From Heterotrichella gracilis (taxonomy: Eukaryota > Sar > Xanthophyceae > Tribonematales > Xanthonemataceae), in NCBI GenBank assembly GCA_032358255.1, contig JAULBX010011323.1, forward strand, positions 1 to 64,000: DNA of 64,000 nt, given 5' to 3'. This document shows, piece after piece, positions 7,249 through 63,986 of this stretch. Position 1 is the first letter of the stretch. Every line of letters begins with the position of its first letter. The notes beneath the pieces were generated by a model, which had not been told where the DNA came from, ran no database searches, and saw only the letters and a program-made list of their open reading frames with translations. Position numbers and translations under genes: made by a program.

Positions 7249-10200
7249 ATGCAGTCCACGTCAGTGTCAGTGGTGGTGACCATCTGGCTGGTGATCGCTG
7301 CGCCCTTCCTTGCAGCAGCTCAAGGTTAGTACTCACCGGTAAAAGCCCGCGAGGAAACAGGTAGTTGCTAGGCTGTTTTCCCAATGTGGTCTGTAGACCT
7401 GGCGCGAGCGACGGGGATGCCTATAGGACTAGTACTGCTGCTGCTACGTGGCAGTAGAGGCAGTGGCTGGCCCTGCGAAGGGGCAGGTTACCTAGACATA
7501 AGGACGCCTACTTATTCGCGTACAATAGTGGTTTGTGAGCACTGGTTAAAGTCTATGGGTCTAGATGTCGCGCCCGGTTGGTCCCTGTGAGATCCCTGGG
7601 TGACCCTTATCTAGGGTCTCAAAACCGCTGCGGGCCATATCTACTGATAAGTTATCAGTTATCAGTAGATATCTTTTGGACACCTTATCTTGCCATATGG
7701 TAAAGGGAATCCTATTGAAATCCATCTTAGAAAGTAAGCAAATTGAGGCGGTACTCCCAAACTTTCACACGCATAGGCATAGGTTCCATACCATCCGCAG
7801 TGTAGGGTCTCTAGGGTCTCTCTAATCTCTCAGAGGTGCATGTCACGCGCCTGGTCTTCTAACCAGGTACATAAGATGGTTTCATAGGGTATTTCAATGA
7901 TGCCTTATTCAGGTACAGATAGTTTGAGAAACAATGTCATGCAAGCCTAGCATGATGTGGGTGTATGTGCATGCCATGATAAGGGGTCAGATGCAGCATT
8001 CCACAATGTGAATGGCACAAGTTGCACAAGTCACACAGCCACAACACACCCGCAGTCCTGACTCTGTAAACTTGCTTCCCCGGCCTGACACTGTGACTTA
8101 CCAAGGACAAATAAGATTAATAAGAGGACCTACTATCATTGTTTTCCCCCCTCTTAATGATGTGCAGGTGACCAGTTCTCACGGCGGTCCCTGGTGGATG
8201 AATCCGGTCCATTCTTTGGAACAGCTGGTGGTGAGGGTTTAGGGTTTAGGGTTCTCCATGGTGCCTTATACTGTGGTTTTTGTACCACAGACTGTGCCGA
8301 TCATATGTTGCCATGCTGTGGAGGATGCAGGGTTGCATGGGGTTGGATGGTGGTCGGTGTCTGCAGGCCCGCTTGTATTGCTGATCGCTACCCTGATGCC
8401 CAACAATCTGATTTGCCCCAACAGGCATGCACGCATATGCGCATGTCAAGTGAAATCCCCACACCCATAATGAAACGTAATCGATGTATCACATGCCCAT
8501 ATGAAATCGTTTTGCTTGGAGATCCATCCCATTAACTATACCTTTGAACCCGCACCTGCAGACTGTGACAAAACGGCGAAGAAGAAGGTCTGCCCCGTGA
8601 TCGGCGGGAAAACCCTAGGAACTGCTGAGCAGGGCGATCCGCCATACCCCATCACAGCAAACTCGTGCTTTAACTTTGACACCACCCGCGCCTGCCAGAA
8701 GGTGAAAATCCCAAATTTCGGCAAAGAAGGGACCGGATTTGTGTATCAGGGACTGTGTATATTGTTCACTTGGAAGCAAGGGGTATAAAATGATGATAGA
8801 TCCTTAAGACTATAAGGCATTGGCTAAGGCCTGGGCTTGACCAGCCGTTCTCGATGGTCAGAGCCCTGGAGCGAGACAGCGAGACAGCGGCCCCTGTTTT
8901 GTGCGTCCCCTTTCTTTCTTCCTTCTTCTTTTTAATACCTTTGTTTCCTAACACACCACCCGCGCCTGCCAACAGGTGGGCACAGGCGCGTCAGCAAGCA
9001 TCAAGGCCCCACAAATCACCATCACCACCGCCATCCAGTGCTATGCCGACCCGCGAGTGCTGGACTGGCGCCTGGACAATGGGAAAGGCACCTGCGGCAA
9101 GTCCCTCTACAGGTCCGAAAGCCCCTTCCCCGCGCATGTTCAAAACAGGCTGTGTCTTTTTTCGTTCATTATCTGGTTGGTTTTATTATATATTCATTTA
9201 ATTATGTATGTATATATATGATTTAATTTGCAGGTCTGAAAGCCTCTTCCTCGCGCGTTACCCGCGTGCTCAAGGATAGGCTGTGAATTTAGTCCAATAA
9301 TTAATTGGTGTTTTTCCTCTATTATTATACTTGTGACCTATGTATCCATTGACAGGTCTGAAGTGCCGCGTTATGGCGGGGGTCCTTCTAGTCCTCCATA
9401 TGTGTGTTCTTGATCAACTAACTCCGACTGGCTGTGTACCTGTTTATTTACTTATTATATGTCTATTTCACTTACAGGTCCGAAGTGCCGCGTTATGGCG
9501 GGGGTCCTCCGTATGTGTTTACTGACTCCGGCTTTTCGACTGCGGCCTATGACCTGAACAAGGTAATCAATTACATGTTCTTGTCCATTTCCTGATTTAT
9601 CTACTTGTCAACTTGTCTGTTTATTTCACGTAATTGCTCATGGCCTGAACAAGGTGGTGACTTGATTACTCATTCATTCCTTTATTTCTTCAATATATGT
9701 TCGATTGTTTGTTTATTCATTCATTTTATCATTTGTGGCCTGAACAAGGTGGTGACCTGTGTGAGGAGCAAGGCCAACCCCACCATTTGGGTGGCACCCG
9801 TCACGGTCTACCTGGCCTCTACAATATTCAACAACCAAGGGGATGTGCCCAAAGGCTGCTCGGGGCCCAACGGCTTCAGCAACAGGTTCACCACATGCAC
9901 CCAGTGCCAGCTCAAATGGGAGCTGCCTTGCACCTGTGAGTACACCGGCGGCGGGCAAACTTTCCAAAAACCCTATGCTGCATTAGACCCTGCGCCTGCA
10001 GCCCAGACGCCATTGCCCATGTAAGTAAGTGCATGCATTCCAGCTGAGAGGCCAGGTAGCATGTATGCAGGCGCATTTGGTATTAACCACATGCATGAGC
10101 TGCCGTGTCCCTGCTTCCCACATGTGCGCACACAGGGGCCAAATTCCTTGTTGGCCTCACTATTGCACATGCTATTTCCCCCCTGATTCACTTCTTACGT

Positions 10201-17342: not shown

Positions 17343-20300
17343 CTACTGCTGCGCCGGCGGCTGGCCCGGCATGCCCGGGAACCCCGCCGGCATGGACGGG
17401 TAGCCCTCCGGCATGCCAGGTGGCATGCCCCCGTTGGGCATGCCGGGGTAGCCCTCGAGCGGCATGCCCCCGGCTGGTTGGAAGAGGTCGGTGATTTTGG
17501 TGAAGACCTTCATGACCTCTGGGTCTGACTGGTAGTTGACGATGGCCATGGGGTTGGAGGTCACCTCCATGATGGCCTTTTGCACCGCGGGCTTGCTGAA
17601 GGCGGCGGCCAGCTCGGGGTCCGCCATGATCTTGCTCAGGACCTGGAGGGAGAGTGGAAAAATTATTGAGTACTTAACAACTCATATTTTACTCCTTTTA
17701 CTCAACTTTATGAGTTTAATCAGTGCATTTTCTTTTCGAAGGTACCGTTCAGAAAAGCCTTTTGCACCGTGGGCTTGCTGAAGGCGGCAGCCAGCTCAGG
17801 ATCCGCCATGATCTTGCTCAGGACCTGGGAAATTGGGGACTTCATCTATTTAAGGAAAAATGGGGAAGTTTCTGAGGCGTTATTCTGTAGACGACACCAT
17901 CACCACCACCCCATCTAAGGAGCCCCACCCACCCCCGCCTCATCCCACAGGCGCACCTGGCTGCACTGCCGCAACCCACCCACCAACGCACCTCATCCAG
18001 CGCCTAATATTTGTAAATTGTAAATATTAATATACAAATGTTAATTGTAACTGTTTGCACAATGTGATGTAATCCACGCACCTCATCCGGCAACATGCCG
18101 ATGGCATCAAACTGCTTCTTGACCTCATCCCAATCCACAATGACATTAATGACATCAAATCCACAATCTCGACGCTCGAGGCTAAAAGTACGCACCAAAG
18201 ACACCCCTCCAGGCTAATTTAACTGCACTGCCTCAACCCACCCCACCAACGCACCTCATCCGGCGACATGCCAATGGCGTCAAACTGCTTCTTGACCTCG
18301 TCCGAGTCCATGTTGACCTTGGACATCATGTCTGCCATCTCGGGGCTGAAGTTGGCTGCCTGGGCAGACAGCATGGTCTCCAGCTGCGTCCTGTAATCGC
18401 GGATTAGGGTTTAGAATTTGGTGTTGAGGATTGTGATTTTACGGTTATTTGGAAAGGTGAGTGTGCCTGGGCGGACAGAATGGTCTCCAGCTGCATTGTG
18501 AAATCGCACGGTAGGGTTAAGGGTCTTTAAGAGTGCGGGTTTTGTAGGGTTTCACAGCTTCTGGGGTGCTGGCGGCGTGGTGTCCAGGGATGGATACACA
18601 TTATGGCGCACAGCTTACCCAATAAGGCCGGTGCAGATCTACCCTGCCTGTTTAGGGTTTAGGGTTTAGGGTTTAGGGTTTCTGGGTTGGACAGCATCCA
18701 GATGTTCAGGGTGGGTTTCGAAAGGGTATATACCTAGGGTTTTAGGGTTTTAGGGTTTTAGGTTTTCAGCTGACCTGTATTCTGGGTTGGACAGCATCCA
18801 GTCGAAGGTCTCTGGGTTGCGCATTGGCTCTGGCAGGTACGGGTACAGCAGCCGCTGCATTTCGGGCGACTTCATCATCTTCTCAAGAAGCTCAACAGAC
18901 ATCTTGGGCTTGGCAGCGCCTGCAGGGTGTTGCATTAGGGTGTCGGGCTTAAGGTGTGTGAGTTCTGGCCTCCAAAAGGGGTGTAGAATCTATAGTTTTA
19001 AATGCAGGGCTAAAGGGGTATCTCGAGCACATTCTCAGCCCACAGACATATGGGGCTTGGACTTGGGCAGGGTGGTAGAGAACGCAAAGTCAGAATCACG
19101 TTAATTTTTCTGTGACAAGGTGCTAGTGTACGCATTAGGGTTCTTGCTGCGCACCATTGTCCTCTGCATCCTGGAAAAACGAACTAGAGGTTAAAGGTGC
19201 CTCCTCAGCTTGGGATGAGGTTTAGGGCTTAGGGTTCGCATTAGTGTTTAGGGTATGCACTTAGGGATTAGGGTTTTTGCTGCGTACCGTTGTCCTCTGC
19301 ATCCTGGAAGAACGAACTAGAGGTTAAAGGTGCCTCCTCAGCTTGGGATGGGGTTTAGGGCTTAGGATTCGCATTAGGGTTTAGGGTATGCACTTAGGGA
19401 TTAGGGTTTTTGCTGCGTACCGTTGTCCTCTGCATCCTGGAAGAATGAGCTGGAGGTGGAGGGTGCCTCCTCATCTTGGAATGGGGATGGTGGTGGGGGC
19501 GGGGGTGGAGGGGGAGGAGGTGAGGAAGAGGGGGTGAACTGCGCCTCTTGCTTGGGCGGTGGGGGGGAGGGGGCTGCGGCGGTGGGTGCGGCGGCGGGTG
19601 CGGCGGCGGCCTTGGGGGGGGTGGGGGGTGCGGCTGCCTGGGGCCGGGCTGTGGGGGTGGGGGGACCATGGTTTAGGCAATTTTTTGGGTGACAGGCTTC
19701 CAGTGTTGCAAATACTATCAACAGGTGACATGCTCAGCGTAGTGTTACGCATGCCACCCCGGAAACCCTATATTTGAGGTAGGGGGACTAGGGGTAGTTC
19801 AGGCTTCAGTGTGTTGCAGAGCAGATACTTGGCGACAGGACAGCAACCGTCCCCTAGACTGTAGGCGGGCGGCATGTGCGCAAACCGTCCCAGGGAAACC
19901 AAAAAACCCTAGACGCTATTCCCTGACCCTAGCAATCCCCACCAGCGGTTGCCGTGGTGTCAAAGGCGGGCGGCATGGACGGGAATCCCCCCATGCCAGG
20001 TGGGGGGAATCCCCCGGCCCCCGGGAACCCTCCTGGGAAGCCTCCCGGGAACCCCGGTGGCGCACCCCCCCCTGCCTTGCCAGCCTGGTTCATCATGGCT
20101 TTCATCATCTGCTCCATCGCCACCTGCTGCACCTTCTGGGGGCCACCCTTGATGAAATCGAAGGCCTGGGGGGATGGGGTTGAAAAGGGGTTGAAAATGC
20201 ATTCAGTTACAATTGATTGGTACTTTATGCAGACCATCTGCTGCTTCGCCACCTGCTGCACCTTCTCGAGGCCCCCTTGACAACAGCAAAGGTCCAGAAC

Positions 20301-22674: not shown

Positions 22675-25661
22675 ATGTATCTAACAGCAGCCAACCGGCT
22701 ACAATGCGTGGCAAGCGCTTCTGGGCCCAACAGGAGCGAGCACGTGCACACACGAGGTAACACCACCACCCACAGCCTATCGACACCCATTGACAACCAA
22801 CCCACCGTGGCTCATACGTTTAAACACCACATTTTATCAGTCGAATCAGTCCGTGTGCGTCTCAAGTGGAAAGCTGCGGTCAGGCAGCCAGAGGGGAGCT
22901 GGCGATGGTGGTGCTATTTGTCTTATCTGTGCCATCTAGTACTGCCAGTACTTCCTTCTAGCTGTTGGCACGTTGCCCTGCTCCTGAGCCTCAACCCTAG
23001 GGGTTTCTACCGTACAACATATGCAGCCCAAACCACTATATCCCCTGATTAAGCACACCATATATGCAGAGATCTGCTGTCACCCTTCAAGCACCCACTC
23101 AAACCGTTCGCACACACCCCACACAAACCCCGGCCTCCAAACACACCACCCTCCACACCACCCCCCGCACTGAACACCCCTGCTGCAAGTATTCACACGT
23201 ACCTTTTCGCAACCCTCCTTGACCTTCCTCCCCGGCACTGCAACACCCCTGTCGCACACTCCACCCTCTGGTACTCACCTGCACACTCACCCACCAACCC
23301 ACTAGTCCCGCACACCCACTCAACCACCTGTCCCCTTATGACAACCCACCCACCCATGCGCACACACTCTCATTGGTCCCCACCCACCCACCCACCCACT
23401 AGCCCTCACCTTCAACAGGCAGCCGCACACCTCAAATACACGCCACGCCTGGGGATGCGCAGCCAATCTCCGCGGGTCCCTCAAGGAGGCAGTGGCTCAA
23501 GGGTGCGGCGGGGGCACCACTGGCAATATGGCTGTAAGTCCTGCCGCGATCCCCAACACACTGGCACGAACATGTGGCACCACCTGCCATCGCCTGTGTT
23601 GCCAGCAATCCCCCACCACCCACGGGGAAGGGACTGGGGTGCCCCCTTGGGGCCCAATGCAGAGCTGCACACCAGCCCCTGCAAACCTTCAAACACTGGA
23701 ATACTCCGCTGCGGGCGACAACCTACAAACCCCGGACAATGAGCAGGTTTTTGTACTAATTTGCACTGTATGCTGGTCGCAGGTGTGGGCTTGGCTCTGC
23801 TCCCCCCGCACAGGCGCGCGAGGGGCTGGTGGTTACCCCCTTGGGCCCTAAGGCTGAGCTGCGCACCACGCCCCAGGGCACGGTTTTCAACTCTTTGGAA
23901 TTTACGTTTTCGGTCCCCGAGGGATTCGAGTATGCGCCCCCCCCTGCACCCAAAAGCACCGGCGTGCGGCTCACGATAGGTGCGCGCTGGTGTAGGGTTT
24001 AGGGTTTAGGGTTTGGAGTGAGGGGCCCAAGGCGTGGCTGCGCAGCACGGACGATCACGCGGGTTGATACACCTTTGTGTTCACATTTAGGTTTTAGGGT
24101 TGTAGAATTACAGGTACGGGAACTTTGGGATGCAGATTTTCGGGGGACGGAACCTTATTTCTTAACATTCATGTTCCCTGTCCCAGATTTGTGTTGGAGT
24201 AATCTCCCCCCTGTCACAAGGTGGGTGCATGGGGCACAATGGGCTTGGGGTTGTCTAACACCATTGGAACGTGGGTATAGGGTGTCGTTATGTTACATGC
24301 ATTCAAGCAAAGTAGGGTATAGGGTGTAGGATGATCACCTCTTCCCAGCTGTATCCGGGTGCAGGGTTTACGCTTTGCCGCTAACACTGTCGTGGCCACC
24401 ATGTGTGCCTTGCAGACCAGGGCCCTTCAGAATCCCCGATCAAGGCGCGCTTCACCACGCCCGATGGCAAAAACATCGTGGTCATTGTGCGGTATGCAAG
24501 CGAGGTGCAGCAGACGTTCTTCCAGGTGAGTTGATGGGCAAATGTGGGGTGCATGGTGGTGGGGCGGGTCGCATGGAGGTGCAGAAGTGAGGGATGAGCA
24601 GAGGGGTGGGTGTGTGGGTCACTGGACGGTGGGTGGTGGGGGGTGGTGGGGAGCGGGGCCACAGGGGGGGAAACATGCTGGTCATCGTGCGGTACGCAAG
24701 CGAGGTGCAGCAGACGTTCTTCCAGGTGAGTTGATGACATGAATAGATCAATGTGCATGGGAAAGTGGCGAGGTGGGGTGTGTGCAGAGGGTTGGGTGCG
24801 TGGGCAACTGGCACTGGGTGGTGGGTGGAGTGGGAGGGGAGAGGGGGGTCACAGTGCTCCTGGGGGCGCGCAAAACGCAGGGGATCATTGTGCGGTACGC
24901 AAGCAAGGCACAGGAGACGTTCTCCCAGGTGAGGTGATGGGGTGGGGCTGCATGTGGTAGATGCGCGTGAGGGGGGGAGGAGGGGGTCAGACAGGACGGT
25001 GTTGTGTGGCCTGCTGCATGGTGGGAGGGTTGACAAATTTGTGGTCCCCAAGGTGGTAGAATGCATGGAAATGTCCCGTTTTTTAAATTATTTCCTGTGC
25101 CTTGCAGCTGACTGACATCAGCCAATACGGCGACGTGGCCACCGCCGCAAAATTTGTGGTCCCCAAGGGGGGTAAAATACTGTCCCAGGGAGTGACCACC
25201 ATCCCCCTGCCTCCCAAGGACACAGGCACGGTGCGGGGGGTGGTGGAGCGAGATCCCGTCAACACATACAGGTGCGCATCCCTGCAGCAAGAACCCCATT
25301 ACAAATCAAAGCATTGGCGATGCCGCAGGGCTCCAAGAGGCAAGCTCCCGCACATATATAGATGTAGGGTTTAGGGCTTTGAGCGACTGCTGGCTGACGG
25401 GGGGCTGCATCTGGCAATAGCAGCGGTGCATGCACAAAACAATTATGTGTATCATTTACAATCAGAATGACAATCACATGCGACCACGCCTTGTATTACA
25501 GGTATGAGTTCCTGAGCGACGGGGGGCTGCACCTGGCGATAGCAGCGGTGGCACAAAAGGGCAAGCTGTACATCCTGGCTGCATCATGCAACGACAGCCA
25601 ATGGCAGGAGGCGCAGCCAACACTGGATAAAGTAGCAGACTCATTCAGCCTGTTCTATTAG
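22675..25661 (+). CDS. PsbP-family thylakoid-lumen protein
   Basis: Exons 22675-22756, 23419-23533, 23783-23979, 24416-24525, 25108-25271, 25502-25661 give 275 residues with all phases matching. PsbP relatives act in the thylakoid lumen in photosystem assembly or oxygen evolution. Targeting is bipartite: a basic/Ser-rich plastid transit region, then twin arginine and a hydrophobic core (PSRRQWLKGAAGAPLAIWL, about 48-66), then an APPAQA cleavage site near residue 77. This predicts Tat-pathway import. The mature part has LEFTFSVPEGFEYAPPP, GKNIVVIVRYAS, LTDISQYGDVATAAKFVVP, YEFLSDGG, LYILAASC and LDKVADSFSLFY at the C-terminus, matching the PsbP fold's ending (usually ..ADSF..). It could be one of the PPD/PPL paralogues rather than PsbP itself. 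The first exon is chosen because only its phase leads into the RR motif. Exon echoes are numerous, including two copies of the last codons after the stop. Confidence 0.87.
23633..23712 (+). repeat. Echo of PsbP-like exon 3
   Basis: CCCCCTTGGGGCCCAATGCA then GAGCTGCACACCA and CTTCAAACACTGGAA repeat 23835-23905 of the real exon, diverged and out of frame, about 200 bases upstream. Confidence 0.8.
24665..24935 (+). repeat. Two echoes of PsbP-like exon 4 donor end
   Basis: GTGCGGTACGCAAGCGAGGT, then GCAGCAGACGTTCTTCCAGG and TGAGTTGATG, occurs at about 24665-24735, and a more diverged copy at about 24880-24940. Both repeat the true exon end at 24485-24535 together with its donor. Copies are spaced ~195-210 bp. 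Confidence 0.93.
25035..25060 (+). repeat. Echo of PsbP-like exon 5 interior
   Basis: AAATTTGTGGTCCCCAAGG repeats 25149-25170, in the intron just upstream. Confidence 0.8.
25376..25430 (+). repeat. Echo of PsbP-like exon 6 start
   Basis: GGCTGACGGGGGGCTGCATC then TGGCAATAGCAGCGGTG repeats 25515-25550. A TTTAGGG-like run (TAGGGTTTAGGGC) lies immediately before it. Confidence 0.9.
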
Positions 25662-25784
25662 GGAGGCTGGGCAGAGAGGGGTTTGCGGGAAAAGGATGTT
25701 AGGAATGGAGTGGGTGTTTGGAGGCCAGGGGTTCGATCTGGGGCGCGCTTTGAGCTTGTAATAGGTGCTGAGATTTTTCATGGG

Positions 25785-26020
25785 GCTGCATCATGCAACG
25801 ACAGCCAATGGCAGGAGGCGCAGCCGACACTGGATAAAGTAGCAGACTCATTCAGCCTGTTTTACTAGGGGGGCAGGGGCTTAATCTCAGCCGGGCCGGG
25901 GTTGGATTGCAGTTGGTTTCCAAGCTGTTCATCCTAGCTGCATCATGCAGCAACAGCCAATGGCAGGAGACGCAGCCGACACTAAATTAGTAGCAGACTC
26001 ATGAAGTCTGCTCTATTAGG
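25785..26020 (+). repeat. Two C-terminus echoes beyond the PsbP-like stop
   Basis: GCTGCATCATGCAACGACAG and the following ~65 bases, through the stop codon, are repeated at 25785-25868 (near identical) and 25938-26020 (decayed) after the real end at 25661. They lie in the 3' untranslated region and cannot be alternative internal exons. Confidence 0.95.
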
Positions 26021-26679
26021 GGGCAGGGGCCATCTGAGACGCAAATCAGATCCATGGATGTAGGGTGCGCGGTTTGACTGTTGTCCACAGGGTGACTGGC
26101 AGTGCATTACTAATCAGCCAAGGGTATTGATTATGGCCATTGCTGTTGCTGGAATTGCTTGTGGGTGACGCCATGCCATCCGGCAGGAAACAGGGGCCGC
26201 TTCTGTGGTTGGCATTGCAAACTGCCTCCATTGTAACATTTGCCACCAAAGAAAGAAATCCATTGTGCCATTGAATCATTCCGGGACGGTTATTTGGATG
26301 GCCAGTGACCAATGGCTGGTGAGGTTCGACAATGTAACATTGTTTGCAACAGTTTGTTCACCCGGCCCTGGGGCCTGTGCTTCTCAGCGGCTATGTGCCT
26401 GTTAATCTGAACGTAAAGCAGCTTGCACAATGGGGACCGTATACATCACCACTATCACAGAGTGTCAATTGACGAGCGTTGCTAATGATGCAAAATCCAC
26501 CAGTCACTATTGCAGCGACTGCAACAAATAACTATTGGTACCGGACAAAATCCCTGACAAAATCATCCACGATGCCCATGCTGCACTGGGCAAACAGCAT
26601 GAGATAGAACCTCTGGCATGCCATTTGAAAGCTTTTCCCCTTCAGGAAGATTCAAGACATGAGCATTGCCTCCTTCCCC
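26021..26679. other. Convergent intergenic region
   Basis: Lies between the PsbP-like and SOUL A 3' ends. A TGTAA at 26232-26236 could end the PsbP-like transcript. No gene seen. Confidence 0.45.
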
Positions 26680-41800: not shown

Positions 41801-44800
41801 GGGCCTCGTCCGAGGGTGCTGTGTACATCCCGTCCGGCCAGAAACTCTGCGGGTTTAGGGTTTAGGGCCCGATGGCACCGCCCCCTAAACCCTGAGTGGT
41901 GTCCTGACACCCCATCGGGCAGAAACCCTGAGTGGGGGATGGAAGGTGGAGGGGGAGTGAGGGATAGATGAAGTGGGGAGGGGAGGATTGGGGAACATAT
42001 TATAAGGGGCTTGTTAAAGGTGACGTGCAGGAACACCCACTGGGTTTGGTAGAGAAGGGGGTTTAAGTCAACTTGCAGGGCCTCGCCCACGCGTGAGGGA
42101 AAGTACACAGTAAGTTGCCACCTACTAAATAACTACTGCATTTTCAATGTTTAGGTAAGTACACCATGCCAAGTTCCTCATCCGAAACGTGGCATGAAAA
42201 GCCTTGGTAGTGCAACTTGCAGCCTGTTTTTTTCCGTGTATGCTGTCCTGATATGCCAGAAAGTGTGCTGCAGCCCCTGGTGTGTCAAGAGAATGCATCT
42301 GCTGTGGAGATAGCCACACCATACCTGTATGCAATGTCCTATTATGCCCAGAAACTGTGTTTAGGGTTTAGGGTTTAGGGTGCCCCCCCTGGTGTGCCAA
42401 GAGAATGCATCTGCTGTGGAAATGGCCACACCATATGCAACCTGGTGGGGTGCATCACCGCACCACCGCTCGCCTCATGTGGCATGACTACCTCCCAGCA
42501 AATGCATTCCTTCACATACCCAGGGGTCACACGGTACAGGCATACTTGGAATATGGCATAAAAGGCACCACCATGCCGCAAGTTGCACCACTTGACGGTG
42601 GTAGCAAACTTAGGATGCGGCATAAAATACCCTAAACCCTAAGCAAGGTGCAAGTTGCACCACTTGACGGTGGTAGCATACATTAAAGTACGACATAAAA
42701 TACCCTATATCCTTAATCCTAAACCAAGCTGCAATTTGCACCACTTTGGGCTTTAACGCGTCACATCACAACACCACTGACAAGGAGTAAGACTGGATTA
42801 GTGTAGTCTCCTCCCCAACGTAGTAATCATACCCGACCCAGCAATCCAAGCCCTGTATGCATGTATCACTTGCGTTTCTGCTCAGAAAAGCGTGTTTGCC
42901 CAGCCAAGGGTCCAGCTACTGCTCACTCATAGGGTTAGGTGAGAAAAACCCTTGCCTAGTTCCTTGTCACTACTATGGTCGTAGTGGTGCAATGTGCAGC
43001 CTGATTTTGGCCTGTTCTGCAAAATCCTAGGGTGCCAGGGAGCTACATGCACCAAGTGCGCCTGCCCATTGTAGACTCGTGACTGCGTCAGTAGTGTCAG
43101 TCAATCCCAATAGCCCCCTGGGAGATTACATACATGTGGTATGGTGATCACAGATTGTTCACCACTACATCACTGCCAACAAAATACCCACTGATTGTGG
43201 CTCCCATACAATCTCCTCGCGTGCCAGCGGGCCGCTGGTCTCACGTGCGCCTGCCCTTTGTGGACTCGTGACCGCATCAGTAGCGTCAATCATGGCACAG
43301 ATGACATAATGGCTGTATGCCATGTGGTACTCAATGTCAGGGCGACGGTATCCCAGAGACAGGCCTCTCCTTGTGTCTGGATGCAGTCGCACCAACGATG
43401 TGTGTCACGTGGCATACCAGCCATCTTGCAAGCTGCCCCTGGGGTGATTGACGCTACTGACGCACTCACAGGTCCACACTGAGCAGGCGCACTTGGTACC
43501 AGTGGCCCTCTGGGTGAATGCATACGGGGTATATTGATCACAACTCCATCGCTAACCGCTCACTTGGGATGGCCTAAACCCTACATCCCAAACCCCAAAC
43601 CCTAAGCCCTAAACCGCTCACTTGGGATGCATCTACTACATCAGCACGCGTTCTGCTGATTACTCAGGGGACTGCACACAATTCCTGGCACACTAAACAA
43701 AAAAAACATAGAAGGCAAAACCAAGCCACGAGCAGCACTACCCTAAAACCTGAACCTCAAAACCCTAAACCCTAAACCACCAGTGTGTGCTGGCCCTGGT
43801 TAACAACAAGAATGCACCTGATCTGGAGATAACCCTGGGATGGTGATCACAGTACGATGGCTTACCACGTTTATAATGACCACTACCACATTAGATGCAT
43901 TTTTCGCCTAACCAGGGGCTGCACACAATTAATGGCACAATGAACAAAAAAGGCACTCAAATCTTAAGACAAAACCAAGCCGCAAACAGCACTACCCTAC
44001 AACCTAAACCTTCTAACCCTAAACCCTAAACCACCAGTGTGTGCAGGCCCTGGTTACCCACAAAAATGCATCTGATGTGGACATAACCATCCCACACGTG
44101 GTACAATGAACACAGTACCACTGGTTACCACATTTGGGATAGTTATTACCCACGTCAGATGCATTCTGCTGAGTAATCCAGGGGCTTCACACAATTTCCG
44201 GTACACTAAATGAAAAAGGATAATAGGGAAAAGTGTTGCCGCAAAACCAAGCAGCAAGCAGCACTATCCTAGATACTAAACATTATGACCCTCCACTGGG
44301 GGTTCCTGCCCATTTATTGACTCCCTACCCTAGGGTTCCAGTCCTCACCTGATCCAGCATCCTTATCTGGAACACCACCTCATCGTTGAGCGTGATGTAG
44401 GTCAGGCCCCTCTCACCCACATAAGCCAGCCCTTCAAACCCTACCCTAGGGTTCCTACCATTCTTCAAACCCTACCCTTTGGTTCCTGACCGCGCCCAGT
44501 CATGACGGCAATCCCGCCACTTGAATGTTAAACCCTACCCTAGGGTTCCTGGCCTCACCTGATCCAGCATCCCCATCTGGAACACCACCTCGTCGTTGAG
44601 CGTGATGTAGGTCAGACCCGTCTCACCCACGTGCGCCAGACCAACCTGCAACATGGCAACAGACAGTTGTCAGCCAGTGCATTTGCTGGGAACTACCCAA
44701 CAAACGAGCGCAATTTTCACATTCAGAGGATAATTTTTCAGTCAACAGAATGGCTGGTTACTGGGTCCACGCCTTCAAGCACATGAGCAGAGGATGCCAG

Positions 44801-47820: not shown

Positions 47821-51914
<4,094 letters not shown>

Positions 51915-52019
51915 GGGGTGGTGTGTGGTGGTGGTGGCGGTGGTGCTATGGGGGCATGGCAGCCACCCTGTCGCAATTTTCCTGATGTCACAGTGTGGTG
52001 GTGGTGGCGTGGGGATTAT

Positions 52020-52290
52020 GGTTGGAGGTGATCGCATTGGTGGGCGTCTGGGGCTGCTGGCCATTGGCAAAAAGAATAACCTGCTGCTGCGGGTGGAGTG
52101 AGGGGTGGTGTGTGGTGATGATGTGCGGAGACTGCGTTTTTACTTGTGCTGGTGGCACCTGGTGGGGTGGGGTGGGGTGTGGAGGGGGGGGAGGGAGGAT
52201 TTTATCGATGGCCGCCTGGTGCTGTTGGCCACTGGCAAGAAGACTCTGCTGTAGGCCACTTGGCAAGCTGCTGGTGCGGGTGGGGCGATC
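52020..52290 (+). repeat. Two echoes of the TyrRS C-terminus beyond the stop
   Basis: GAAGAACAAGCTGCTGCTGC-like sequence recurs as AAAGAATAACCTGCTGCTGC then GGGTGGAGTGAGGGG at 52070-52106. ATCGATGGCCGCCTGGTGCT then GCCACTGGCAAGAAG recurs at 52204-52240. Both are 3' of the stop at 51912-51914. Confidence 0.93.
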
Positions 52291-53160
52291 AGTTGGGTTG
52301 TGGTGGTGGCGACGGTGGGATCACCATTATGCTATTCTTTTCCTGATGACCACCAGTGGTGCTGGTTGCGGCGTGCGTGTGTTGGTGGCGGTGTGGAGGT
52401 TTGTCCAGCCTGCCGCGTTGGCGCTGGCGGAAGTGGTGAGAGGGCATGGCAAGGGTACTAGGGTAATTATAGGGTACTAGGGTAATTATACTATTATCTT
52501 TATTCCCTTGGCGTGGGTGGGGTGAATCAACCCCTGGGGTGAATGGGGGTTGGGGTGAATGGGGGTTGGGGTGGTCGGGGTGGGGAGGGTCCCCCTCTGA
52601 GGAGTTGTAGGATTTGGACCGCAGAGGCCTCTGATTGTGGCTCGGGCAAGGACTACACCGGTGTGTGCTTCACATGGAGGGTCGAAGCCATTTTGTGTAG
52701 GGAGTAGGTTTTAGGGTTTAAAGTGCGTAGTCCGCTGTCAGCATTTCTGGATGCCTCACCCAATTCAAGTGTGGCGATGCTGTGAAATCATCCCTTTTGA
52801 CTGCGGTTTTGTGTGCCGCGGCTGTAAATAACCCCCCTTTGCATATATGCATGCCTTGTACAAACCCTTCAACGAAACCCTATTTGTATGACAGAAAGCT
52901 TCCGAAGGACCTTCACAATTTATTTCTTGAAGGCTATGCCCACCTGCCATATCAGCCATTATGTAAAGAGCCACTTGATCCAGCTGGAAGGTTTGCTTGT
53001 CAAGTGACCTCTGCTTGTATCTGGTGTGTCAGCGTTTAATGCGGTGAAAAACGCTGCAACTCCGTAAGCAAAGTTGCACAGCCCCACTTCAAGTGGACCA
53101 CTTGCCAGTGTGCAGAATACTGTTCTGGTGTCTTCTGTCAGCAGTTTACCGTCAAACACA
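52291..53160. other. Intergenic region
   Basis: No gene seen. TGTAA occurs near 52823, far from the TyrRS stop. Confidence 0.45.
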
Positions 53161-55875: not shown

Positions 55876-58800
55876 ATGGTCCTCCGCACCGTCCTCAGGA
55901 GCGTTACCCGCCACCACAATAAGTTGCAGCAGGGCTTCAGATGTGTGGATGGAGCGCCTGGGTGGGTTTTTCTCCGCCAGGTCTCTTCAACTCCAGGGTG
56001 CTTCCAACGAGTGGCCAAGGAGGAGGCAGCACTGCCCACGGCAACCCAGCCACCAGGTAAGGCCATGGCAGCGTATTTGCGGTTTAAATTGTATCTTTAA
56101 AGATTGCAGTAGCTTCCCACATAGCTGCTCGCTCAGCCAAGTGGTCAACAGCTGGCAAAAACCCCCATTCCTGATTCAAGATGTGAAGAGTGCAAGCCAC
56201 GGGAAAACCCAAGACGCTAGAAATCAGCAGCAAAGACTCGTGTATACACTTCCAGCAGACATTGTTGTCGTTGCAACTCAGCGAGAAGCAGCCACAAGCA
56301 TTTCTGACCGTATCGGGTCAAAAGCTGCCCCCTGAACCCCCCATCCCCTCCCCCATCCACAGGCCAATTACTGCTGCGGTACCACGATCTAGTGGCGAGA
56401 GGCTTGTTGAAGCCTGATGAGCAGCAATTACATGTGGCAAGCCATCTAAGTGACCTGTGTGACACTTTGGTGGGGTACCAGGCGCAAGTGGACCTCTACT
56501 ATGCGCAGCTGGACCGCTACAAAGTGAGTGCGGCCTAGACCCTGAAACATAAACCCTAGACCAAAGCCATAAAACCTAATGCAGTGAACTATGTGACACC
56601 CTGGTGGAGTGCCAGGCGCAGTGGACCTTTACTATGCGCAGCTGGACCGCTACAAAGTGAGTCTTCCTTAGATCCAAAACCCTATTACAAACCCTACACC
56701 CTAGGCCCTAGACTTTAAACCTGAGACCAGTACTATGCGCGGCTGGACCGCTACAAAGTGAGTCTTCCCTACATCCAAAACCCTAACCCAAACCCTACAC
56801 CCTACACCCTAGACTCTAAACCCTAAGTGGCGTGATCTGTGTGACACCCTGTTGGGGTACCAGGCGCAAGTGGACCTGTACTATGCGCAAGTGGACCGCT
56901 ACAAAGTGAGCGTGACTTGGACCCTAGACCCTAGACCCTAGACCTGTACCCTAACTTCAGTGCACTGAGTGACATTTCTGGTGGAGTAACAGGCGCAAGT
57001 GGACCTTTACTATGCGCAGCTCGACCGCTACATGTGAGTGTGGCCTGGACTGTAGACCCTAAAACCCCCAAATGCAACAAACCCGCTGCAAATTCAAAAA
57101 ACAGCCCCAATATGCACAGGCTGAGCGCCAGGTGCTTCGAGAGAACCTCGTCCAGCAAGCCGAGGCCCAAAAGCAAAACCAAAACAGCGTCTCCAACCAG
57201 TCCAAGGGCATCCTGTCCTGGGTGTCGGCCAAGCTGGGGACAGGATCCATCCCGGGGGCTCCCTCGCAGGAATCCCGGGAGCATGGCATAGTGCTGACGG
57301 TGGCCAAGAGGGAGCAGAAATTGGATGAGGTGATGGGGCTCGGTCCCCAGCCGCCGCAGGCGCCCAAAGGTGGGGATTTTACGGGAATTGGTGGGGATTT
57401 GTGTGCAATGCATGCCAATGACAGCATGACTAAAGCACTGTTTGTATATTGGCTATTCCCATATCGCGTAAGGGTTTAGGGTTTTGGGCATGTAAGTGAG
57501 GGAATCCTGGGAGCATGGCATAGTGCTGACTGTGGCCAAGAGGGAGCAGAAATTGGATGAGGTGATGGGGCCCGGTCCCCAGCCGCCGCAGGCGCCCAAA
57601 GGTGGGGATTTTCGGAAAAGGGCAGGGATTTGCTCACTCCTCTTGCAGGGCATGCCATGATGGCAAGGGTTCCTCTATTTATAGCAGGCCTGTACCTCCA
57701 AAACTATGATGAACAATACCGAGTACTTAAAAAAAAAACAAAAAAACTGAGAACATTTAATAGTTTTTTGTTAATAAAAGAGTATTTGAAGAAATAAAAG
57801 AGTATTTAAATAAAATCCTTGATTTTTGCCACATGCAGGCCTGTACCTCCATGGCAGCGTAGGCACAGGCAAGTCCTTGCTCATGGACCTGTTCTTCGGA
57901 CTGGTGGATGAGCAGGGGCGCACTGCCAACAGGCGCAGGATGCACTTCAACGCAGCCATGCTCGAGGTGGGTGCGGGACTTAGGGTTTTCGGCTTAGGGT
58001 TTAGGGTTGCGATGCATTTGAGGAGGGTTTAGTGATGAGGGTGTCACCACACAGTGCAGGCACCAAGCACGTTTACAAGTAAAACGGTAAGAAAAGGGTA
58101 AACCCTAGGGCTCTCATACACACCTCGCTCCATGCCCCCTTTCCAGGTCAACAGCCGGCTTCACCACCTGGAGATGAGTCGGCAGACCAGCCAGGCCAGA
58201 CGCATGGACCTGCACCTGCACCAAATCAAGCAACAGATGGCAGGGGAGGAGGGGGTGCAATCAACAAAGACGGTGGGTGGTGGTGGTGCTGCTGCTGATG
58301 CTGGTGTGGCGGTGGTGTGAGGGGGGTATGCACCGCACCGATCAAGCTGCAACTTGTCGGAAGCATTGGAAAGGGTGCCTCACCATCTCCAAACCCTTGA
58401 CCCTCGCCTATGCCTACAACACCCCTGCTGGCAATGGGCTAGCAAATCAATGTTGGAAGAGGCATAATATCACCTTCAAACCCTCAGTGTTCCTCCCCTG
58501 AGTCAGATCTCGTAATACTCTACCCAACCCTTCATTCTGTGCAGGATCCAATGCAGAAAGGACAAAGGCAGAAGGAGGCCACCATCGCCCGCATCGCCAT
58601 TCGGCGAACGATCAGGGACCGATTATCCCGATCGCCCTTCGAAAACTCCCTGGCCCTGGCCCGATCCAAACACATAAAACCTTGCCAACCATGGTCCAAA
58701 CCCTGTTAAACCCTAATGCAAACCCTACATTTGCTGCAGGATCCAATGCGGCAAAGGCAGAAGGAGGCCACCATCGCCCGCATCGCCATCCGACGAACGA

Positions 58801-61434
58801 TCAGGGACCGATTATCCCGATCGCCCTCCGAAAACTCCCTGGCCCTGGCCCGATCCAATGCTATCATAGTGCAGCGGGCGGCCCAAAGCCTGATCAGGGG
58901 CAAGGAGGATGACATCGAATCTGGGTGGGAGGGGAGGGGACGGGTGGCAGCGCTGCTGTGCTTCGATGAGATGCAGGTCACTGACCCCTTCACTGCCGTG
59001 GCGCTCAAAGGTGGGTAGTTAGGGTTTTAGAGTTTTGGGGTTTAGGGTTTGGGTTCTAGGGTTTTGGGTTAGCTTATGGTTACGCATGGGTAGGTGGTGA
59101 GTCTCACGAGATTCAGTAGGTGTTGACACCCCTACATAACCCCCGTCCATAACCCCCTACAGGCATCTTCTGGTGGAGGGGTGCGGGGTGGTTGCCACCT
59201 CCAACCTAGCGCCCCAAGGCTTGAACAGCAATGGGGTCCACAGTATCCTGTTCACATTATATTGTGCAGCTGCCATACCTCCTTGCCCCACTCATTCCCC
59301 CCCCCCTCACCATCTCCACCCCCCCACAGGCATCTTTGAGGGTCTCATGGCGGATGGGTGCGTGGTGGTTGCCACCTCCAACCGAGCGCCCCAGGACTTG
59401 AACAGTTTCGGGCTGCATGAAGACCTGTTCACACATTTTGTGGATCAGTTGACCACCCACTGTGAGGTGGTGGAGCTGGGGGGCGCCAGGGACTACCGCA
59501 GGAGCCAGGGCTGGGAGCCGGTGAGTGGTGGGGGTAGAGATGTGATTCTTACAAAGAAAAAAGGCTGTAATGAATGGCTGAAAGTCATCACAAGCCTGCT
59601 GCACAACATGAGGCGTTTCAAGATGCTCCAATGGGCTACCTAATCATGAGCTGGGTGTTTGATCACTGCTTTTACCAGCAGATGGTCCTCCCCTTTTTTT
59701 TGCACATTGGTTTTCGACCATGCAACTAATTTCACGTCTGCCACATTTGTTTTACATCTGCGATGCGATTTGCTGCAGGTCGCCACCACCAGCACCTCCC
59801 TCCCCTCAGCCTCCACCTACTTTTACCCCCTGGGCCCCCACTCCCAAGCAGCACTGGACGCCGCCTGGCGCAGCCTCACCACCCACCACCCACCCAGCCC
59901 CACCCCCCTCCAGCTGCCGGTCATGTTTGGGCGCACACTGGAGGTGGGGGTGCATGCAGAGGGTTGCAAAACATGGATCAACAAGTCATTGAATAACAGA
60001 AAACGATGAAAAGTTGCCCCACCCCATTTGATGAGTGGCACGGTCTGTAAATTTTCCTGGCTTTTCCTGTCCCTTTCCTGTCTCTCCCCCCGGCCCCCTC
60101 CTCTATTCTGATGCGTAATTGTCAGTTTGTTCCATGCCTGATTGAGGCATCTTGCCTGTGTTCCTTCAGGTACGACAGCATGCAGGGGGGTGCGCAAAAT
60201 TCGAGTTCGATGAGCTGTGCGGCCTGCCCCTGGGATCCGCCGACTACATTGCTGTGGCGCAAGCTTTCCACACGGTGGCCATCACCGACGTCCCCTCCTT
60301 TTCGATGAAGGTGCGGTAAATTTATTTCTAGTTTCCTGTAATTTATGGTGCCCAGTAATTCCACACTAACCCCAAACCCTTAAACCCTTCACATGAAACA
60401 GGATGTGGGTCTTGCCAACATGGCATCTTACCCCTCCTCAGCATGGTTAATTTACCCCTTCCATTTCACCCATGCAATCAGAATCGGGGACGAGCCCGGT
60501 GATTCATCACTCTGATTGACGAGCTCTACAACATGCAAACCCTCCTGTTGTGCACCGCTGGAGTCTACTTCTGGCCCCACACTAATCAACTTTGCCACCC
60601 ACTCCACCCGTCGACACCCCTGAAAATCGCCTGTGTTACCAGCCCCCATCCAATCTGACCCCTCGATTGCCCATGTGACCAGAATCGGGATCGGGCCCGG
60701 CGCTTCATCACACTGGTTGATGAGCTGTACAACGCGCGCACCCGCTTGATGTGCACCGCTGCCTGGGCCCCCGATCAGCTGTTTGCGGGGATGGAGGGCG
60801 GGGAGCCCATTTTGGACTGGGAGGGGCTGCAGTTTGAGACGGCTGTGGAAGGTGGGTTTAGGGTTTAGGGCTTAAAACTTAGGGCGGGGAACCCATTATG
60901 GTTTAAGAGGGGCTGCAGTCTGAGGTGCCGGTGGGATGTCACCTGTTGGAAGGGTGTATGTGTGTGTTGGGGGCAGGGATTGCCCTTGGTTTGGTGGTGT
61001 GTGTATGTGTGTGTGGAGGGGGTGAGCAACCGTCTGACCCTGGTGAATGCAGCCCCTACAGATGGAGGATTGAGAAATTTAATCGATTTATGATCATGTG
61101 CGCTCTGTCCATGCTGTGGTGCAAGGAGATATCGCCACCTGGCGTTGCCCTCACACTCAAACCCTAGTCCCCCTACCTCTTGAACTCCACGAGCATACTA
61201 TGTAACCTAAACAAATGAGAACCAACCCCCCTCCCGCGGAGTCCAGGTGGCATGCTGCGGCGCGAGGTGATGTCGCCAGGTGGCGTGGCCCCAGTGGCCG
61301 CAAGCCCGCAGGCGCGGCTGGCGGCGGCGGCTGCACTGGGGGGTATGGAGGAGCAGTTTGCGTTCAAGCGGGCGGTGTCGCGGCTGCATGAGATGCAGTC
61401 CGAGCTGTATGCGCGGTCACGAGCCAGGGGGTGA
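55876..61434 (+). CDS. AFG1: AFG1-like mitochondrial AAA ATPase
   Basis: Eleven exons: 55876-56056, 56363-56523, 57120-57369, 57839-57966, 58147-58272, 58740-59010, 59330-59520, 59779-59943, 60170-60310, 60683-60851, 61247-61434. They give 656 residues with all phases consistent. AFG1/LACE1 (bacterial ZapE) ATPases act in mitochondrial protein quality control. The N-terminus [20 protein letters not shown] is a basic mitochondrial presequence. Walker A is GSVGTGKS at ~203-210 in [20 protein letters not shown], followed by [12 protein letters not shown]. Walker B is [13 protein letters not shown] (~353-365), and [15 protein letters not shown] carries the sensor Asn/Arg. Later blocks are [26 protein letters not shown] and the terminal [15 protein letters not shown]. 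An insertion between Walker A and B (charged, Arg-rich) is longer than usual. Nearly every intron contains exon echoes. Confidence 0.95.
56583..57040 (+). repeat. Four tandem echoes of AFG1 exon 2 donor end
   Basis: TACTATGCGCAGCTGGACCG then CTACAAAGTGAG, the end of exon 2 with its donor (56501-56530), recurs at about 56625-56665, 56730-56770, 56870-56912 and 57008-57040. Most copies also carry the preceding CAGGCGCAAGTGGACCTTTA. Filler between copies is CCCTAGACCCTAAACC-like. One copy has ATGTGAG in place of AAGTGAG. Confidence 0.97.
57498..57615 (+). repeat. Echo of AFG1 exon 3 3' end
   Basis: GCATGGCATAGTGCTGACTG then GAGCAGAAATTGGATGAGGT, CCGCCGCAGGCGCCCAAAGG is almost identical to 57281-57375, donor included. 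Confidence 0.97.
57680..57704 (+). repeat. Echo of AFG1 exon 4 start
   Basis: GCAGGCCTGTACCTCCAAAA repeats the acceptor and first codons at 57836-57852 (GCAGGCCTGTACCTCCATGG). The copy stops before the Walker A codons. Confidence 0.85.
58544..58675 (+). repeat. Large echo of AFG1 exon 6 start
   Basis: GGATCCAATGCAGAAAGGAC, GAAGGAGGCCACCATCGCCC and GCATCGCCAT repeat 58739-58860 nearly exactly for ~125 bases. The copy keeps the acceptor but has a small insertion near its start. Confidence 0.97.
59163..59250 (+). repeat. Echo of AFG1 exon 7 start
   Basis: CATCTTCTGGTGGAGGGGTG, GTGGTTGCCACCTCCAACC and GCGCCCCAAGGCTTGAACAG repeat 59331-59410 with changes that break the frame. Confidence 0.95.
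60480..60925 (+). repeat. Echoes flanking AFG1 exon 10
   Basis: AGAATCGGGGACGAGCCCGG then TTCATCAC and GACGAGCTCTACAAC at 60479-60570 repeat 60681-60770. GGGGAACCCATTATGG then AGGGGCTGCAGT at about 60887-60925 repeats the exon's 3' part. Confidence 0.93.
61105..61150 (+). repeat. Echo of AFG1 last-exon start
   Basis: CATGCTGTGGTGCAAGGAGA then TATCGCCACCTGGCGTTGCC is a diverged copy of 61251-61292. Confidence 0.8.
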
Positions 61435-62721: not shown

Positions 62722-63986
62722 CTAGAACCCACCTCCCCCATACCCACCCCTGTTGTAGCCGCCGCCGCCCCCATACTTGTTGCCACCCCCACCCCCATAA
62801 CCCCCTCCACCACCACCGCCGCCGCCATACCCGCCACCCCCATTGTAGCCGCCACCACCGCCACCACCTGCATTGTAGCCACCACCGCCGCCACCAGCAT
62901 TGTACCCGCCGCCACCACCCCCTGCGTTGTAACCGCCGCCGCCACCTGCATTGTAGCCCCCGCCAGCATTGTACCCACCGCCGCCCCCTCCACCAGCGTA
63001 GCCCCCAGCTGGCGCCCCATTGTAGCCTCCAGTACTGCTTGGCGCGCCCCCGCCCCCGCCACCATACTTGTTGTAGCCCCCACCTCCTGCACGGGCATAC
63101 ACACACTCTTTTTAAAACATGGGATTGTCTACAGAGAACCCCCCATGCCAGCGCCAACGACGTCATGCCCTTCTTCCCGCGCCTCATGTACCACTTCAGA
63201 CCTTCCCATATTACCTACATGGAAAAAAACATTCCAAAGCAACACTTCAATGCACATACTTCAATAAAGCAGATCCTCAGCTAAGGCACTGCTGCGTGTT
63301 CCCCTCACCTGCCCCGCCCGTCTGCACCAGCGGCCCCATGACCTCCTCCCCCCGCTGCAGCTTGCCAATGTGGTCCAGCAGCAGCTTGCTCTCGCGCCCA
63401 TAGTCCACCTGGTCCACGCGCATGATGGACACCTTGATCTTGGTCTCGTCGTTGTACACCTCCTCGTGCACCTTCAGCTTGAAGTTGAGGTGCTGGAAGT
63501 TGGCGGCCTGCACAACATTGAATAGAATAAACATCATTGGACTATATTTGGGTATGTAATCCGTGACTTTACAAAAACAAGTCGAGACAGTCATGAGGGT
63601 GCCAACCCAGGCCCATCAGACTGTTGTAAATTTACAGTGACATCAAACACCGGATCCACGCCCCTGCTGCATGGTAAACCCCAAACCCCTAACCCAAAAC
63701 CCTACAACCTTACCGCAAACGCCGGATCCACGCCCCCAGGCGTATCCTCCAGCTGCTAAAGATGATAATCCTTAAACCTGAACTCCAAATCCTTACCGCA
63801 AACACCGGGTCCACGCCCCCCGGCGTATCCTCCAGCTGCTTCAAATCGTTGGCCGACATCTGCATGATTGCGTCGCCCATGTCTCCAAATGCAGTGAGCC
63901 ACTGCTGCGCGGTGTGGTCGTAGGCCTGCAGGCTCAGGATGTAGCGGTACTCAGGGGTGCAGGAGGCCTGGCACCGCTCGCACCAC
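62722..63986 (-). CDS. RPA1: Replication protein A large subunit C-terminus with Gly-rich tail (5' beyond window)
   Basis: Minus-strand exons 63986-63797, 63507-63309, 63086-62722, with phases matching. RPA1 binds single-stranded DNA in replication and repair. The visible part begins in the zinc-ribbon/DBD-C OB fold: WCERCQASCTPEYRYILSLQ, then DHTAQQWLTAFGDMGDAIM and QLEDTPGGVDPVFA. The end of the DBD-C fold and its trimerisation helix follow (FKLKVHEEVYNDETKIKVS, DYGRESKLLLDHIGKL). Instead of stopping here, as RPA1 normally does, the frame continues through a well-spliced exon into ~120 residues of Gly/Tyr/Asn repeats (GGGGYNAGG type, ending NRGGYGGGGF). The splice phase (G|GA) and the long open repeat support this being real. 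The tail resembles an intrinsically disordered, RNA-binding-protein-like domain. The N-terminal OB folds lie outside the window. Confidence 0.9.
63640..63762 (-). repeat. Two echoes of an RPA1 exon 3' end
   Basis: CAAACACCGGATCCACGCCC (about 63644) and TTACCGCAAACGCCGGATCC, then GGCGTATCCTCCAGCTGCT (63710-63757), repeat 63793-63840 with the donor. Confidence 0.93.

Follow-up and report, generated by a model that had tools for sequence, protein, structure and literature searches.

Decayed same-strand copies of coding edges in introns of Heterotrichella gracilis point to recurrent short local duplication

The origin and lengthening of introns is an old open question. In some algae, introner elements add introns in large numbers. 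The intron-gain cases ATP2A1 and potato RdRp share with some of the introns described here in-register direct repeats at both junctions, with splicing restoring the frame. In potato RdRp, the duplicated piece also crosses the intron-exon boundary (PMC4974935). A table in a 2012 review, which describes the mechanisms of intron gain as elusive and controversial, lists 188 gains of this type across seven named organisms (PMC3443670). Small tandem duplications arise from the fill-in of staggered breaks (CST-Pol alpha), as described in a paper that also cites patch-mediated repair in rice (PMC8355091). Mammalian repair-mediated duplications are described as being 147 bp long in the median and 1.2 kb apart on average, with one inverted example (PMC2671141).

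The echo system of H. gracilis is a variant of this known kind of duplication and intron gain. In contrast to the ATP2A1/potato-type gains, many events pile up per intron and gene, and they mostly enlarge existing introns. Unlike introner elements, no shared element was seen among the sequences compared: a single echo region and three spacers hit no locus other than their own, and spacers from different loci share merely telomere-like or simple repeats. The echoes resemble staggered-break duplications as characterized in PMC8355091 in being direct, local and under about 100 bp, but their copies are usually split by unique sequence, show a strong coding-edge bias and favour two lags. Like mammalian repair-mediated duplications and 'doublets' as reported in PMC2671141, they are short, close, often separated and include exons and splice sites, but none of the 64 edges has an inverted copy, and the distance is about 100 or 190 bp.

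The window, i.e. the whole analysed stretch of 64,000 nucleotides, contains seven genes in which 32 introns were modelled by hand. At a score of at least 34, 29 of the 64 exon edges are copied on the same strand within their own intron, compared with 0/64 edges on the opposite strand and 1/1,984 other-intron pairs. Lowering the score to at least 30 yields 39 echo segments across 23/32 modelled introns, which thus still reveal the source of part of their own sequence; the corresponding controls were 0/64 and 7/1,984. Self-comparison of the window by blastn gave 96 direct and 7 inverted matches, and the window together with the fetched loci L004-L035 contained 123 direct and 7 inverted close self-matches (at most 800 bp apart). 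Two stretches fetched later, both on contigs already known as rich, added 7 direct and 1 inverted, and 13 direct and 0 inverted matches. In twenty 10-kb stretches, local matches numbered 37 direct and 3 inverted, and block-wise dinucleotide shuffling of these stretches left none. The echo observation is real, and the original prediction that it lies far above chance is borne out by the own-edge and other-intron counts and by the empty shuffles.

Copies are local, on the same strand and anchored at coding edges, namely splice edges and two stop-codon ends. An earlier description as splice-junction segments was right in that splice edges are copied and too narrow in that the 3' coding ends of PsbP and TyrRS are also echoed. 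Duplicated cores are mostly 30-150 bp long. All four arrays named beforehand (19139-19420, 24485-24940, 40325-40715 and 56501-57040) are present, and their supposed privacy to one exon was confirmed for one of them, as a probe across it (24400-24540) matched nothing in the genome beyond the three copies of the array itself. In RPA1, a gene outside the modelled set, window self-blastn identified a repeat pair at 63,644-63,840. The features are listed in Table 1.

Table 1. Echoes of coding edges and introns with matching junctions in the window.
Feature	Position	Strand	Score or identity
Cys-rich intron 1: in-register direct repeats at the ends of exon and intron (putative intron-birth signature)	8702..8975	+	score 21.6
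Cys-rich intron 2: matching repeat at both junctions	9113..9477	+	score 12.0
Cys-rich intron 3: CCTGAACAAG|GT at both junctions	9563..9748	+	score 12.8
TIC40-like acceptor-side echo, of exon ending 17642 (+ strand)	17757..17828	-	94% / 72 bp
TIC40-like donor-side echo, of exon 18255-18390	18076..18171	-	81% / 96 bp
TIC40-like intron: two donor-side echoes in tandem, lag 133	19134..19353	-	
PsbP-like intron 24526-25107: two donor-side echoes	24671..24941	+	scores 90 and 58
PsbP-like 3' coding end: two echoes downstream of stop	25784..26030	+	95% and 85%
GH2 intron 39971-40633: three donor-side echoes	40149..40552	-	
GH2 intron 40787-41520: acceptor-side echo	40862..40935	-	92% / 74 bp
GH2 intron 40787-41520: two donor-side echoes	41133..41385	-	
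GH2 donor-side echo, of exon starting 44559 (+ strand)	44323..44432	-	90% / 110 bp
TyrRS acceptor-side echo, of exon starting 49371	49148..49220	+	89% / 73 bp
TyrRS intron: end matches previous exon's end in register	49700..50019	+	score 8.8, p 0.006
TyrRS intron 50221-50708: donor-side echo	50257..50327	+	
TyrRS intron 50922-51367: donor-side echo	51062..51138	+	87% / 77 bp
TyrRS 3' coding end: two echoes downstream of stop	52024..52318	+	84% and 71%
AFG1 intron 56524-57119: four donor-side echoes	56583..57050	+	scores 51-113
AFG1 donor-side echo: 101 nt exon and 32 nt intron	57501..57632	+	93% / 133 bp
AFG1 acceptor-side echo, of exon starting 58740	58526..58669	+	4 mismatches / 137 aligned
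AFG1 acceptor-side echo, of exon starting 59330	59153..59228	+	79% / 86 bp
AFG1 intron: 5' end matches next exon's start in register	59944..60169	+	score 10.6
AFG1 acceptor-side echo, of exon starting 60683	60469..60560	+	79% / 92 bp

Copies of coding edges greatly outnumber those of intron interiors, and by more than a neutral simulation predicts: 22 coding edges (score at least 50) stand against 7 intron-only pairs (score at least 44), the latter being what is left of 14 intron-intron pairs once 7 belonging to exon-edge arrays were set aside, with five of the retained seven lying in one 2.9-kb GH2 intron that was simulated at just 600 bp (simulated edge share 0.29, p = 3e-7). The simulations used rates of our choosing, with indels making up 12% of changes and exons changing at 0.25 of the neutral rate, and took Markov sequence as introns. 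At an identity of at least 88%, the comparison is 13 to 2, with three more such pairs falling outside the modelled genes.

Of the two copies, the exon is under constraint, and the echo decays almost as neutral sequence would. In six introns, echo-specific changes are distributed 13/13/23 over the codon positions and exon-specific changes 0/3/9, and mismatches amount to ~10% on the exon side (173/1,692) and ~18% on the intron side beyond 10 nt (45/253). The direction of change was read from constraint; a paralogue at 2.1-5.5 kb was tried as outgroup, but the divergence of its intron was too great for the pair 4790/4871 to be polarised. Codon position 3 accounts for 108/182 exon-echo mismatches (59%), a little above the expectation for a neutral echo with silent exon change. 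That echoes are conserved alternative exons was rejected on the near-even spread of their specific changes, although these are somewhat frequent at position 3, which may reflect weak past constraint on the echoes. An apparently conserved donor region in the echoes (5% mismatches in the last 10 exon nt) was dropped as well, since the alignments had been chosen to reach the junction. Polarity, locality, codon-position spread and intron-side divergence support the view that local segments were repeatedly duplicated and then decayed; the simple tandem form of this view misfits some cases.

Lags of isolated pairs cluster at 102±18 and 192±19 bp (one 415-bp lag was excluded from the mixture fits), with similar means in the window (105 and 196 bp) and at other loci (100 and 187 bp). 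Taken by itself, the window gives poor support for two size classes (p = 0.11), and arrays occupy part of the interval between them (p = 0.007 with arrays included). The spacing of 130-210 bp given earlier needs revision: isolated pairs lie ~102 or 192 bp apart, and the smallest lags of arrays range from 63 to 248 bp. In a set of 101 pairs from which telomere-repeat-dominated or low-complexity pairs were left out, as they were from the lag analysis, 18 are contiguous and the remainder are mostly separated by 20-200 bp.

The regularity of the lag, the contiguous pairs and the sequence around the cores favour plain tandem duplication, in which the lag itself is the unit (~100 or 190 bp), duplicated at random sites by slippage or unequal exchange, with the exon part recognisable through constraint on one copy and the unit's intron part decayed away. 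Homology beyond the core occurs in 13/53 spacers of isolated pairs at p≤0.01 and 23/53 at p≤0.05 (1.1 and 5.2 expected by chance), and flanks show a small excess of similarity (p about 0.001) confined to the 30 bp next to the cores (26/73 at p≤0.05 with arrays included). We nevertheless consider this account unlikely. Neutral decay with indels, simulated and searched in the same way, falls well below the edge share seen (22/29), and gives a median intron-side homology of 36 nt against the 12 nt seen in 26 hand-entered echoes (five were omitted, four ending short of the junction and one comprising 11 nt exon and 32 nt intron sequence). Since 30/53 spacers are without far-side homology at either threshold, a plain tandem unit fails in some cases. 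The pairs 58526/58721 and 57269/57501 differ by only 3-7%, yet their spacers are without significant far-side homology, and 3-7% pairs like the former fall outside the 24 lowest-p spacers (p≥0.059).

Separated copies could instead result from copy-and-insert repair, in which an intron break is mended by pasting in sequence copied from close by, in many cases an exon edge. The process would be synthesis-dependent strand annealing, which has been proposed for human repair-mediated duplications and 'doublets' (PMC2671141). Three spacers searched against the genome each matched their own locus only (3/3), which suits this account and led us to reject mobile elements or captured distant DNA as the source of the spacers. 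The human events likewise include exons and intron splice sites, but in a published case an exon was copied in the opposite orientation (PMC2671141), which was seen for 0/64 edges here. As the coding bias and the two lags would also be left unexplained, we find this mode of repair quite improbable.

TTTAGGG is the telomere repeat of the genome and is strongly enriched in introns of echo regions, so telomerase or captured telomere DNA might have filled breaks and bridged the copies. Telomere-like scores of at least 20 were obtained for 27/76 spacers compared with 11/76 and 10/76 flanks and 0 shuffled sequences, and echo density tracks telomere-heptamer density over 20 stretches (rho 0.80). However, heptamers are as dense in 9 echo-free introns (32/kb) as in 23 with echoes (24/kb), and the flank comparison is therefore confounded by exons; one early telomere comparison was biased in addition, with repeats masked before the search. 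A bridge also predicts TTTAGGG by copy 1 and CCCTAAA by copy 2, whereas their mean relative positions are 0.54 and 0.46. With this polarity absent and introns with and without echoes alike, the telomere bridge was dropped as highly improbable.

Short-read assembly has difficulty with short tandem copies, but we give almost no credence to an assembly or sequencing artefact because 0/101 pairs are at least 98% identical, the copies differ by ~3-31% and carry their own changes, and the same pattern recurs on independent contigs. The absence of such near-identical pairs means either that activity has waned or that young copies were collapsed in the assembly.

Our best reading, which we regard as fairly probable, is recurrent short local direct duplication, most often straddling a coding edge, followed by near-neutral decay. 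Short DNA, usually across such an edge, would be duplicated on the spot without change of orientation, leaving copies ~100 or 190 bp apart. The homology that 13/53 spacers retain beyond the core is in keeping with this reading too. Because a junction-straddling duplication leaves a complete exon and splice site, the coding sequence would be unharmed and the intron would grow; that echoes inflate introns, as originally predicted, follows from this anatomy, and they could plausibly create putative cryptic splice sites as well. From the strictly direct orientation and the short, often separated copies, we infer staggered-break repair as the trigger: two nearby nicks on opposite strands would produce a staggered double-strand break, both overhangs would be filled in and the ends would be joined, sometimes with filler. 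Unique fillers as long as ~100 bp seem, in our judgement, more than end joining would leave. We speculate from the coding bias and the two size classes that nick positions are set by chromatin or methylation, the idea of methylation-directed nicks coming from the depletion of CpG (O/E about 0.5). Tentatively, and with some doubt, a lineage-specific, regional duplication process targeting coding sequence in chromatin-sized steps (~100 and ~190 bp) might have built and given birth to most introns there. If this holds, the formation and growth of introns could be observed there in a natural setting.

Junction-duplicated introns, the preferential copying of coding edges, the two size classes and regional restriction go beyond the original prediction, which had assumed a genome-wide feature. 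Echoes are regional: their density is very uneven, with at least one pair in 8/17 window-like 10-kb stretches, five of which hold 4-12 pairs, and none in the other 9/17 (L004, L014 and L022 were excluded as foreign by GC and CpG). Within the window itself, 26-38 kb is nearly devoid of pairs. At the same threshold as for the stretches, one of ten kinesin genes is positive and 9/10 are without pairs; relaxing it brings in a single weak direct match in L028 and an inverted one in L029. The lack of echoes in many genes, such as these nine kinesins, counts against our best reading.

In 5/32 introns, both splice junctions lie in matching in-register direct repeats (p≤0.01 versus 992 cross pairs; permutation gave 0/5,000), and these introns show how they may have been born; such repeats are absent in the other 27/32. 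If a duplicated piece within an exon contained AG|GT, use of the first GT as donor and the second AG as acceptor would restore the frame and yield a new intron. The matching junctions of the five are the signature expected of introns born when an AG|GT-like site is duplicated. AG|GT is present at both junctions in four of the five, i.e. three Cys-rich introns and the AFG1 intron, and the TyrRS intron reads AG|GT and AG|AT; one gene supplies 3/5 signatures. The score of Cys-rich intron 1 (21.6) compares with a maximum of 9.8 among the cross pairs. Cys-rich intron 2 additionally contains an acceptor-side echo at 9352-9386. By eye, another decayed copy is discernible near 9230 in this intron, and a third, internal decayed copy in Cys-rich intron 3.

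When aligned to itself, the window yielded 96 direct and seven inverted matches. The 80 nt of exon adjoining each edge of 32 hand-modelled introns in seven genes were searched against their own intron (score of at least 34), which recovered same-strand copies (echoes) for 29 of 64 exon edges and in 23 of the 32 introns; at the same score, the opposite-strand control returned none for the 64 edges and the other-intron control 1 in 1,984. In all introns carrying both kinds of echo (6/6), the donor-side copy lies upstream of the acceptor-side copy. First described as a genome-wide style in which introns are filled with decayed copies of adjacent exon ends, the echoes are real, exceeding chance in every shuffle, strand and cross-intron control applied, and are biologically informative. 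They proved narrower in reach (regional) and also richer than that description: they extend to the ends of coding sequences, bear signatures of intron birth, fall into two size classes and show a coding bias.

The 3′ coding ends of the PsbP and TyrRS genes are echoed too, past the stop codon, where a splice site is absent. Furthermore, window pairs of at least 88% identity comprise 13 at exon edges, two confined to introns and three outside the modelled genes. Randomly placed duplications with neutral decay were simulated and searched identically; on the assumed rates, hand choices and introns of six genes on which these tests rest, the predicted edge share was 0.29 versus an observed 22 edge and seven intron-only pairs (p = 3e-7; p = 5e-6 for the 13 and two pairs of at least 88% identity), and the median intron-side extent of homology was 12 nt, shorter than the simulated 36 nt (p = 2e-5). 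The 2.9-kb GH2 intron additionally contains older repeats of its own at 42.2-44.3 kb.

The sequence flanking the donor junction by 25 nt either way was compared in register with the equivalent stretch around the acceptor junction, all 992 mismatched junction pairs serving as the null. Five introns of the modelled set scored at p ≤ 0.01, and the observed mean score was reached by random re-pairing in 0 of 5,000 trials. Such junction repeats are the pattern expected of a duplicated AG|GT-bearing exon piece whose interval is spliced out. These candidate birth events are unevenly spread, since three of the five introns belong to the Cys-rich gene.

Genes and features of the window, with gene identities from Pfam searches of hand-spliced models
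Feature	Position	Detail
AFG1 gene		AFG1 ATPase
TyrRS gene		tRNA-synt_1b + S4 + C-terminal domains
PsbP-like gene		PsbP
GH2 gene		GH2 TIM barrel
TIC40-like gene		STI1/HOP-DP domain; name TIC40 from the original prediction
In-register intron, Cys-rich gene (intron 1)	8702-8975	intron end copies previous exon end, mainly
In-register intron, Cys-rich gene (intron 2)	9113-9477	match on both sides
In-register intron, Cys-rich gene (intron 3)	9563-9748	intron end copies previous exon end, mainly
In-register intron, TyrRS	49700-50019	intron end copies previous exon end, mainly
In-register intron, AFG1	59944-60169	intron start copies next exon start
PsbP 3′ coding end	25577-26030	two downstream copies past stop codon
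TyrRS 3′ coding end	51826-52318	two downstream copies past stop codon
Direct repeats, GH2 intron 41686-44558	43638/44152, 43665/43913	
Inverted repeat, GH2 intron 41686-44558	43035/43445	
Telomere heptamers, example intron sites	18650-18680, 42359-42380, 58700-58720, 59010-59065	

Mismatches between exon and echo fall at codon positions 1/2/3 in the ratio 36/38/108 (30 echoes). Where an intron holds multiple echoes (six introns), changes unique to a single echo are distributed 13/13/23 and those unique to the exon 0/3/9. Mismatch is ~10% on the exon side (173/1,692) versus ~18% on the intron side (45/253, first 10 nt excluded), which roughly fits one constrained and one free copy versus two free copies. 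Among 101 pairs, none has an identity of at least 98% and 28 lie at 90-98%. Duplication and decay are the demonstrated steps.

The lags of 62 isolated pairs form two groups, 102±18 and 192±19 bp, and a two-component model is better than one by 23 (linear scale) and 17 (log scale) BIC units. Window pairs alone centre on 105 and 196 bp (gamma null, p = 0.11) and pairs from the other loci on 100 and 187 bp (matched by none of 300 null draws); adding arrays gives p = 0.007. Median copy and spacer are 57 and 42 bp at lags below 140 bp, and 82 and 101 bp at lags of 140-300 bp. The larger class is close to the nucleosome repeat length, a relationship offered as a suggestion only, and a role of chromatin or methylation in setting duplication sites is speculative. 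Among the 53 isolated pairs whose spacer measures 20-250 bp, homology continues past the core into the spacer in 13 at p ≤ 0.01 (1.1 expected) and in 23 at p ≤ 0.05 (5.2 expected). Some pairs are thus true tandem units with a decayed remainder; in the remaining pairs the spacer looks unrelated to the copies.

A sample of twenty 10-kb stretches, drawn from set coordinates on about every tenth contig, contained 37 direct and three inverted local matches, and their shuffled versions none. At a common threshold, at least one pair was present in eight and absent from nine of the 17 stretches resembling the window in GC and CpG, and among ten kinesin genes only L027 contained pairs; lowering the threshold brought in L028 (weak direct match) and L029 (inverted match). 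Two loci deliberately picked on contigs already known as echo-rich were rich again (L034, seven direct and one inverted; L035, 13 and 0). Echoes therefore belong to regions and are unevenly spread, and the genome-wide claim fails against the nine window-like stretches and nine kinesin genes without pairs.

A 2012 review (PMC3443670) names tandem genomic duplication as the sole route shown in vivo among seven proposed for intron gain, with 188 events tabulated, and gives five gains by double-strand-break repair. Other papers describe a duplication spanning an intron-exon boundary in potato (PMC4974935), small tandem duplications in mammalian cells through CST-guided Pol alpha-primase fill-in of breaks with 3′ overhangs (PMC8355091), and human repair-mediated duplications in which DNA from close by is copied, exons and splice sites among it, one exon in inverted orientation (PMC2671141). 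We infer break repair as the best explanation of the duplications. Pervasive exon-edge echoes in introns were not described among the matches listed from titles and abstract openings of the open-licence literature.

TTTAGGG is the telomere repeat of this genome, and arrays of it open contigs C70, C140 and others. Modelled introns (15.4 kb) contain 397 starts of TTTAGGG/CCCTAAA rotations and exons (5.2 kb) one; for a reversed control motif, the intron count is 39. At 26-38 kb of the window the motif shows no enrichment over the control (16 and 18). Sense G-type heptamers start within the 5′ 40% of introns in 130 of 164 cases, and the orientation predicted by telomerase healing was absent. Across 20 window-like stretches, motif density rises with echo density (rho 0.80; control motif, rho 0.42, p = 0.06). 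Even so, echo-free introns are no poorer in the motif (32/kb) than echo-bearing ones (24/kb). Heptamers and echoes are separable because the kinesin genes L026 and L029 are rich in heptamer rotations (61 and 74 in every 10 kb) and have no direct echo pairs. The motif is a companion feature of these introns, its causal role being only putative.

The window makes up the initial 64 kb of a contig of 105,773 bp (C115) in a 68.5-Mb genome of 903 contigs. Gene content points to an organism with plastids; the spliced Cys-rich model had no Pfam match. Tandem paralogous gene segments with proline-rich repeats occupy 1114-5453 (lags ~1.8-2.5 kb, ~74-81% identity in longer matches), and an inverted match between the distant segments 3624-3806 and 32772-32945 (82% over 183 bp) is perhaps a dispersed repeat. 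Three fetched loci (L004, L014, L022), whose GC is 0.35-0.38 and whose CpG is scarcely depleted or not at all, may represent organellar or foreign sequence within the assembly. Across the window and the majority of fetched loci, the observed/expected ratio is ~0.45-0.7 for CpG (introns 0.46 versus exons 0.61) and ~1.3-1.7 for TpG and CpA, the profile that methylation with deamination should produce.
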